64,000 nucleotides of DNA from Nodosilinea sp. FACHB-141 (GTDB lineage Bacteria; Cyanobacteriota; Cyanobacteriia; Phormidesmidales; Phormidesmidaceae), in the NCBI RefSeq assembly GCF_014696135.1, contig NZ_JACJPP010000013.1, positions 1 through 64,000 on the forward strand. Direction: 5' to 3'. Made by a program: the position numbers and the translations under genes. Shown in pieces: positions 59,850 through 63,929 of the stretch. The notes beneath the pieces were generated by a model, which ran no database searches, was not told the origin of the DNA, and saw nothing but the letters and a program-made list of their open reading frames with translations. The first letter of the stretch is position 1. Each line of letters starts with the position of its first letter.

Positions 59850-60671
59850 CTACACCCCAGCGCCTCGATAAATGCGAGCGGCCTGCTCGGGGCTGAGACG
59901 GTTGGCCCCCGGCCAGTAGGGCTGCACCGGTTCAGAAAATTCGGGCAGCGCCACTGAAGGGGCCCCCGCACCGGGCCGGACTGCGTCGTTGAACTCTAGG
60001 GAAAGCCCACCCGGCTTAAGCGACTTCGCATCGTTTAGATCGGCATAGATTTTGCTGTGGGGTGGCACGAAGGCTTTAGCCTCTTCGTCGTAGGCCAGCA
60101 GCTCGGCAGAATCCAGCTTATAGATCCAGCCATGGATGGCTAGGGTACCGGCGTGGAGCTTGGAGCGCACCGAAGGATAGGTTTGCAGATTGTCGATCTG
60201 GGTGAGGACGTTTTGGGCCACCAGTAAATCCAGCTTGTCCTTCTTTTCCATGCTGCCGTAGTGGTCTTCGACTAGCTTGCGGGTGGCCTCGGTATGGCGC
60301 AGCCAGTGGTAGACCAGGGGCATTTTTTCTTCAAGGTCACCAATTTGCAGCAGTCCCTTCATGGCTCCGCACTGGGTGTGGCCGCAGACAATCACCTGGT
60401 GAATATCCAGAGCTTCCATGGCGTACTCAATGGTGGCTCCTTCGCCGCCGTTGGTAGCCTCGTAGGGCGGAATAATATTGCCGGCATTGCGAATCACAAA
60501 CAGATCGCCAATCTCAGCTTGGGTAATGATGGTAGGGTCTACCCGCGAGTCAGAGCAGCCAATGAACAACACCCTGGGATGCTGCCCCTTAGCCAATTCT
60601 TTGAGCAGCTCCTGGCGGTCGGGAATGTAGTTTTCCTGAAAGTCACGCAGACCACGCAGCAGCTTTTCCAT
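59850..60671 (-). CDS. ccaA: Beta-class carbonic anhydrase, CcaA/IcfA-like
   Basis: The 273-residue enzyme interconverts CO2 and bicarbonate. Zinc ligands are Cys39, His98 and Cys101 (GCSDSRVDP and GHTQCGAMKG), with the Asp41-Arg43 dyad. The 70-residue C-terminal extension (from about 200) distinguishes carboxysomal CcaA/IcfA-type enzymes from shorter cytosolic ones. In the carboxysome it supplies CO2 to Rubisco. No carboxysome genes are adjacent, but CmpR is in the window. ATG at 60671. Confidence 0.9.
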   Translation of the reverse strand: MEKLLRGLRDFQENYIPDRQELLKELAKGQHPRVLFIGCSDSRVDPTIITQAEIGDLFVIRNAGNIIPPYEATNGGEGATIEYAMEALDIHQVIVCGHTQCGAMKGLLQIGDLEEKMPLVYHWLRHTEATRKLVEDHYGSMEKKDKLDLLVAQNVLTQIDNLQTYPSVRSKLHAGTLAIHGWIYKLDSAELLAYDEEAKAFVPPHSKIYADLNDAKSLKPGGLSLEFNDAVRPGAGAPSVALPEFSEPVQPYWPGANRLSPEQAARIYRGAGV

Positions 60672-62466: not shown

Positions 62467-62775
62467 CTAGAAGCCGGTGCGCCGGTAGTTGCCACCATTG
62501 CCGCCGCCAGCGCCACTGCTACTGCGAGCGTCATCGCGGGGGCGAGCTTTGTTCACCCGCAGTTCACGGCCCATCCACTCAGCTCCATCGAGGGATTCGA
62601 TGATGGTGTCTTCCTGAGCTTCGGCGGCCATATCCACAAAGGCAAAGCCTCGGGGACGACCGGTTTCGCGATCGGTGGGCAGGCTAACCCGCTTGACTTC
62701 GCCATATTCTGCAAACACCCGCTCTAAATCTTCGCGAGTGACATCGTAGGACAAGTTACCAACATAGAGTGACAT
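62467..62775 (-). CDS. RRM RNA-binding protein with Gly-rich tail
   Basis: The 102-residue protein has one RRM domain: RNP2 LYVGNLSYD near residue 3 and RNP1 RGFAFVDM at about 45-52, followed by a Gly/Ser/Arg-rich tail (SSSGAGGGNGGNYRR). Cyanobacterial Rbp proteins of this type are often cold-induced and bind RNA, including photosystem mRNAs. The AT-rich leader of about 125 bases upstream would fit cold regulation (inference). A gene symbol such as rbpA may apply, but the paralogue cannot be told. Confidence 0.9.
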   Translation of the reverse strand: MSLYVGNLSYDVTREDLERVFAEYGEVKRVSLPTDRETGRPRGFAFVDMAAEAQEDTIIESLDGAEWMGRELRVNKARPRDDARSSSGAGGGNGGNYRRTGF

Positions 62776-62942: not shown

Positions 62943-63176
62943 TTAATTGTCGTATATCAAGCCTTCGGGCGCTTCAGGATTGTCTTCTAGATATTGGTCA
63001 AAGCCGGTTTTCTTAGGGATCTGATGCTGGTGCGAAACCTCGGCTCGCATCTCTTCCACCACGTCCCAGGCGGCAGCGGCTTCGGCAGAGGTTTCGCCCT
63101 TTTCGGCGGTGATTTGATGGGCGTAGTCGATTGCTTTTTGCAGCTCGTCTTGGAAGTCCTTGCTATCAACGCTCAT
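62943..63176 (-). CDS. CP12-like protein without cysteines
   Basis: The 77-residue protein aligns with CP12: an N-terminal helix (LQKAIDYAHQITAEKGETS), the core AAAAWDVVEEMRAEVSHQ and the C-terminal DQYLEDNPEAPEGLIYDN. CP12 is the thioredoxin-regulated scaffold that binds GAPDH and phosphoribulokinase in the Calvin cycle. All four expected cysteines are replaced: Thr and Ala in the N-terminal pair, Leu and Gly in the C-terminal pair. The AWD-VEE core and GAPDH-binding tail are kept, so binding may be redox-insensitive. The Shine-Dalgarno is good (AGGAGAAC about 8 bases before the ATG). Confidence 0.85.
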   Translation of the reverse strand: MSVDSKDFQDELQKAIDYAHQITAEKGETSAEAAAAWDVVEEMRAEVSHQHQIPKKTGFDQYLEDNPEAPEGLIYDN

Positions 63177-63302
63177 AGTCGTTCTCCTCTGAGATCATCT
63201 TCAAAGTGGATAGGCCTATCTTACCTGTCTCGCGATCGCCGCAGGCATTTCCTAAACAGAGCCGTTGTCGCAGCCTCCCTTAGAGGAAAAAAGGATGGTT
63301 AA

Positions 63303-63929
63303 TCAGTGCTCAAACACCCCCTGGTACAGGAGCAGGTCGAGGGCGACGAAGGTAGGCAAACAGCTAAAACAATCCTGCGCTAACTCCCACCGGCCCTCGC
63401 GCTTGAGCATGGCAGTCAGGGTTTGGTGAATGCTGTGCAGGTAGCGCACGTCATTGGCGGCGTAGCGCAGCTGCTCGTCGGAAAGATTCATAGCATTGCC
63501 CCAGTCAGAGCTTTGGGCGGTTTTGTCGAGTTCGATGCCCTCTAACTCTTTGACCAGCTCTTTAAGGCCGTGGCGAGGGCTATAGGTGCGGCTCAGTTTG
63601 CTAGCGATTTTGCTGCAAAACACCGGGGCCACGGTAATGCCCAGGTTGTGCTTGAGGGTGGCCAAATCGAACCGAGCAAAGTGAAACAGCTTGAGAATGT
63701 CTGGGGCTTCTAGCAGCTCTTTAAGTAGGGGCGCTTCTTTTTGGCCGAGTTCGATGCGCACTACCGATACATAGCCGTCAGCGTCAGAGAGCTGCACTAA
63801 GCAGAGGCGATCGCGCTGGGGCAGTAGACCCATGGTCTCGGTGTCACAGGCGATCGCGCTGGCCTGCCGATAGCGATCCAACAAGTCGGGGGTGAGGTCG
63901 CGATCGCAGATTTCAAAACCGTCGGCCAT
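63303..63929 (-). CDS. rnd: RNase D-like 3'-5' exonuclease
   Basis: The 208-residue DEDDy exonuclease has ACDTETMGLLPQRD (motif I), FHFARFDLATLK (motif II) and a C-terminal YAANDVRYLHSI (motif III with Tyr and Asp). It lacks an HRDC domain, unlike longer RNase D proteins. It probably trims tRNA or other RNA 3' ends. It is the last gene in the window; an ATG at 63929 fits the family. Nothing more is seen in the final 70 bases. Confidence 0.9.
   Translation of the reverse strand: MADGFEICDRDLTPDLLDRYRQASAIACDTETMGLLPQRDRLCLVQLSDADGYVSVVRIELGQKEAPLLKELLEAPDILKLFHFARFDLATLKHNLGITVAPVFCSKIASKLSRTYSPRHGLKELVKELEGIELDKTAQSSDWGNAMNLSDEQLRYAANDVRYLHSIHQTLTAMLKREGRWELAQDCFSCLPTFVALDLLLYQGVFEH

Follow-up and report, generated by a model that had tools for sequence, protein, structure and literature searches.

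In carbon fixation, CP12 serves as the textbook disulfide switch between light and dark, and a CP12 gene that encodes no cysteine raises the question of what such a protein could still regulate. A gene of this kind lies near the end of the window, i.e. the whole stretch of 64,000 nucleotides analysed here (positions 1 to 64,000 of contig NZ_JACJPP010000013.1 of Nodosilinea sp. FACHB-141, assembly GCF_014696135.1). The open reading frame (ORF) at 62943-63176 on the minus strand starts with ATG, forms part of an 83-codon open frame and encodes 77 aa, MSVDSKDFQDELQKAIDYAHQITAEKGETSAEAAAAWDVVEEMRAEVSHQHQIPKKTGFDQYLEDNPEAPEGLIYDN. It matches the Pfam CP12 family (PF02672) with 80.6 bits (cut-off 22.7) and E=1.4e-22 over positions 2-70 of the 70-position profile; because of this match, and given its orthologues, a chance ORF was ruled out. 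CP12 is the only Pfam match, and with no CBS domain the protein is a stand-alone CP12 and not a CBS-CP12 fusion. Its closest solved relatives are the Thermosynechococcus elongatus CP12 (6gfo, 5.5e-15) and a CBS-CP12 (5nmu).

The cysteine columns were set by aligning the protein with its canonical CP12 paralogue in the genome and with solved CP12s. Canonical CP12s place their four cysteines at positions 23, 33, 63 and 72 in the numbering of the window protein, which instead has Thr23 (63108-63110) and Ala33 (63078-63080) for the N-terminal pair, and Leu63 (62988-62990) and Gly72 (62961-62963) for the C-terminal CxxxPxxxxC pair, though Pro67 is retained. The arginine that follows the last cysteine in all 62 four-cysteine stand-alone CP12s compared is Leu73. 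Misalignment was ruled out, since a gap-free alignment to the relatives that keep only the N-terminal pair (CP12-N) puts cysteines at exactly 23 and 33. The earlier note on this DNA had called the protein a CP12 with Thr/Ala and Leu/Gly at the four cysteine positions and hence unable to form a redox disulfide; the domain match and the alignment agree with it, and, judged from a sequence that has no cysteine anywhere, a disulfide of its own is impossible.

This combination is not a new class. A CP12 review (PMC3906501) lists eight CP12 classes from Stanley, Raines and Kerfeld 2013, including CP12-0 with the exemplar Leptolyngbya_CP12-0 (IMG 2509777734). As defined there, CP12-0 is stand-alone, keeps the core and lacks both cysteine pairs, and so does the window protein, which by that definition is a member of the published class. 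The exemplar likewise shows an AWD_VEE core, and it comes from Leptolyngbya, a name under which several close relatives of our strain are also filed; the two proteins are likely orthologous. None of the CP12 literature consulted assigns a function to CP12-0.

The same genome also encodes the canonical protein, as the earlier note had proposed to check. Our whole-genome search found three CP12 genes, i.e. a canonical four-cysteine CP12 (C11:85058-85267), the window gene and a diverged, partly degraded third copy (C20:181196-181399), which at the canonical positions has only the first C-terminal cysteine left. The canonical protein, like the T. elongatus CP12 (6gfo/6gve), shares with the window protein the domain, the core motif, the hairpin layout and the tail NPEA..E...Y, but differs in its four cysteines and two disulfides and is only about 40 % identical. 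The family of the third copy (ALEHARRLT...AIAWETVEEL...YC.A.PDAPECRIYED) has neither the N-terminal pair nor the SHQ motif, and its last cysteine is also gone in the window genome and in one other genome, G009 (YC...EA). The genome also harbours one ordinary phosphoribulokinase (PRK) with both its N- and C-terminal cysteine pairs, a second match to the PRK domain and three genes with a glyceraldehyde-3-phosphate dehydrogenase (GAPDH) domain.

The cysteine-free form is a property of the genus rather than of one copy. Of the 28 genomes of the genus, our own included, 27 carry an orthologue (76-100 % identity); the one without a close match is 87 % complete. None of the 26 intact orthologues has a cysteine; at the four positions 24 read TALG, one SALG and one TALA. 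A four-cysteine CP12 is present alongside in 23 of these 26 genomes. The named loci belong to Nodosilinea, including Nodosilinea nodulosa PCC 7104, and to close strains filed as Leptolyngbya, Phormidium and Tildeniella. The novelty is thus lower than the earlier note had implied for the specific form: its class was already published (PMC3906501), and TALG is a nearly fixed genus signature. In one further genome (G012, L013:1609-1611) TAG replaces TGG at the invariant core tryptophan, either a nonsense mutation or a sequencing error. A small-genome relative (G020) yielded no four-cysteine CP12 match; its CP12s are one with only the C-terminal pair (L102) and one cysteine-free (L031), and therefore no complete canonical switch was found in it. 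No other stand-alone cysteine-free CP12 turned up among the CP12s of the matching genomes, 58 from 31 genera, a modest sample picked by similarity to the window protein.

Sequence comparison shows that the gene is functional and under strong purifying selection, since its omega (dN/dS) is about 0.04 and its protein evolves more slowly than canonical CP12; a pseudogene was ruled out by the same ratio. Pairwise Nei-Gojobori (NG86) estimates give a median omega of 0.041 for the cysteine-free CP12 versus 0.068 for its canonical counterpart in the genus; the pairs lack independence, and many synonymous distances approach saturation. Across the 22 genomes with both, mean pairwise identity is 90.6 % for the cysteine-free and 86.1 % for the canonical protein, and 198 of the 231 pairs show stronger conservation of the former. 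Positions invariant among the 26 intact orthologues include, ahead of the tail, A34, A36-W-D, VEEM, AE, SHQHQ and P54, and within the tail Y62-L-E, P67, A69, E71 and Y75. The core motif AAWDVVEE (residues 35-42, 63051-63074) varies at two residues only, 35 (Ala, Val or Ser) and 39 (Val or Ala), and the arginine-to-leucine site after the last cysteine column is leucine in 25 of 26 orthologues.

How the four cysteines were lost can be traced in part through the CP12-N proteins of Halomicronema, Leptolyngbya sp. PCC 6406 and relatives (L032-L034, L055, L057-L063). These share with the cysteine-free proteins their length, the SHQHQxP linker and the missing C-terminal pair, but are only 60-71 % identical to the window protein and keep the N-terminal pair and the tail arginine; at the C-pair positions they carry Leu/Val and Ala/Ser. 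In a tree built with the cysteine columns removed, both groups form one clade apart from canonical CP12s (Shimodaira-Hasegawa-like approximate likelihood ratio test, SH-aLRT, 98), with one CP12-N protein, L055, placed beside the Nodosilinea group. Since the orthologues of the sister genera keep the N-terminal pair without the C-terminal one, the most parsimonious history from the tree is that the C-terminal pair probably went first, in the common ancestor, with loss of the N-terminal pair following on the way to Nodosilinea. There may have been a second loss of the N-terminal pair, because the TALA protein L031 has an open placement in the tree.

The deeper ancestry leaves two options. Several of the closest matches outside the clade, at about 50 % identity, sit in long frames of CBS-CP12 size, and an origin from CBS-CP12 by loss of the CBS domains is attractive. 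It was not adopted: the grouping with CBS-CP12 has a support of 59, a grouping with canonical CP12 is not rejected (approximately unbiased test, p-AU 0.71-0.76), and 67 columns are insufficient to decide between the two. CBS-CP12 fusions (5nmu; Nostoc L065-L067) resemble the window protein in a CP12 domain about 50 % identical and an often damaged C-terminal pair, but they have CBS domains attached and, in those compared, keep the N-terminal pair. Three long CBS-CP12-like frames (L183, L184 and L186, in G027, G014 and G008) carry at their end a CP12 domain that is strongly degenerate (ARG.SAAKGPYSAAGKAAWEAVAELEAE), lacking both the canonical cysteines and the usual tail.

AlphaFold2 predicts for the cysteine-free protein a two-helix hairpin with short tail helices (predicted local distance difference test, pLDDT, 72.7; predicted template modelling score, pTM, 0.48), and the same layout for canonical CP12 (pLDDT 75.0, pTM 0.49). 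Foldseek ranks highest the GAPDH-bound CP12 of T. elongatus and the CP12 domain of CBS-CP12, with probability 1.00 and none with an E-value below 0.001. The cysteine-free sequence is thus still compatible with the CP12 hairpin, and the model speaks for this compatibility only, because the redox state lies outside it.

What the protein might do is best approached from published CP12 action. In solved complexes the oxidised C-terminal part docks to GAPDH, whereas the core occupies the ribulose 5-phosphate (Ru5P) site of PRK (PMC11257934, PMC4436894), the latter contact being that of Yu 2020 as reported in PMC11257934. In Synechocystis, CP12 engineered without the C-terminal pair or without all four cysteines resembles a deletion in growth on glucose and in NADPH re-oxidation and is null-like for the regulation of GapDH2, and CBS-CP12 is a PRK inhibitor but does not assemble the ternary GAPDH complex (PMC9514657; PMC9623430). 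Because of these null-like variants and the CBS-CP12 precedent, the window protein would not take part in the GAPDH-based dark switch, and any action on the Calvin cycle would go through PRK. We therefore favour, tentatively and at close to an even chance, a Nodosilinea CP12-0 paralogue that stands outside this switch and acts independently of redox state through its core. Working beside the canonical four-cysteine CP12, it would no longer clasp GAPDH, for want of a C-terminal disulfide, and so would stay out of the dark GAPDH-CP12-PRK complex, while the kept helical hairpin (AAWDVVEE, AEVSHQ) could inhibit, modulate or protect PRK or act on another partner recognising the same surface. Control would then come from the amount of protein and not from thioredoxin. 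It is tempting to speculate further, with somewhat less than even confidence, that a thioredoxin switch was converted in two steps into a redox-independent regulator that is under tighter constraint than its canonical sister and that, across the whole genus, has its own dedicated partner or mode of action, be it PRK alone or some new enzyme.

Several points weigh against this proposal. In other systems N-pair mutants are poor at binding PRK (PMC9406205), so that binding without the N-terminal disulfide could be weak. The model behind the retained hairpin has moderate confidence (pLDDT 73, pTM 0.48), shallow alignments and, as said, no redox state. Moreover, the tail (YLE.NP.A.EGL.YD) is strongly conserved, which would not be expected after a simple loss of GAPDH docking; the C-terminal half therefore still matters, and the tail may dock on GAPDH even now or serve a different partner.

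This tail also favours a constitutive scaffold, in which it would bind GAPDH without a disulfide and hold the GAPDH/PRK complex together in light and dark, as the earlier note had suggested. Not only Pro67, Ala69, Glu71 and Tyr75 but also the penultimate acid is kept, the residue that in Chlamydomonas touches an arginine of the GAPDH NADP site (PMC4436894). Such a scaffold is nevertheless improbable: removal of the C-terminal pair or of all cysteines abolishes the GapDH2-dependent functions of CP12 in Synechocystis (PMC9623430; PMC9514657), the arginine beside the last cysteine, seen in 62 of 62 four-cysteine CP12s, is leucine here, and a constant brake on the Calvin cycle would presumably be costly in the light. 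Alternatively, the protein might have moved to a partner outside GAPDH and PRK, such as aldolase or another enzyme, or might be a disordered protein that acts like a chaperone or binds metals. Features fixed in the clade and foreign to canonical CP12 (the MSVD start, the SHQHQxP linker, Leu63 and Gly72-Leu73) would fit such a move, as would the binding of aldolase and metals by algal CP12 (PMC11257934; PMC9406205). Yet the PRK-facing core is conserved as much as in canonical CP12, and the gene neighbourhood, kept only in close relatives, points to no partner, so that we consider this unlikely, if still worth serious attention.

The retention of the core without the GAPDH clasp, together with the frequent co-occurrence of a four-cysteine CP12, would also suit a competitor that is blind to redox state, imitates CP12 in its reduced form, titrates PRK from the canonical complex and thereby tunes the dark switch; as the canonical protein, once reduced, is reported to be fully disordered (PMC9406205), this is distinctly improbable. 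That the gene is a relic heading for loss could be read from the stop at the core tryptophan in G012 and from the 87 %-complete genome without a close match, but an omega below that of the canonical paralogue and retention in nearly every genome of the genus make it very improbable indeed. On balance, the redox-independent paralogue acting through its core remains our preferred reading.

A natural CP12 that has lost every cysteine and yet evolves under tighter constraint than its canonical sister offers a tool to separate the roles of the disulfides from those of the core, for which the CP12-N intermediates provide a comparison series. The genus-wide fixation, these intermediates, the selection comparison and the arginine-to-leucine change are what this analysis adds, although part of this may already stand in Stanley et al. 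2013.

The immediate surroundings of the gene, all on the minus strand, were inspected as well. A Shine-Dalgarno-like GAGGAGA 5' of the start codon (63183-63189) is mostly kept in 14 related loci, and a -10-like TAAGAT (63218-63223), exact in nine of 14 related upstream regions, suggests by its resemblance to the consensus that the CP12 gene has its own promoter. The upstream neighbour encodes an RNase D-like 3'-5' exonuclease (63303-63929; Pfam PF01612, 137.7 bits) and takes this position in 15 named related loci, and the downstream neighbour, an RNA recognition motif (RRM) RNA-binding protein (62467-62775; Pfam RRM_1, 74.7 bits), directly follows CP12 in 13. Both were considered as functional partners and dropped, because the neighbourhood is conserved only in part of the genus and is absent from deeper branches. 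A few genes away lies a carbonic anhydrase (Pfam Pro_CA, 59850-60671), and this gene order is kept in most close relatives.
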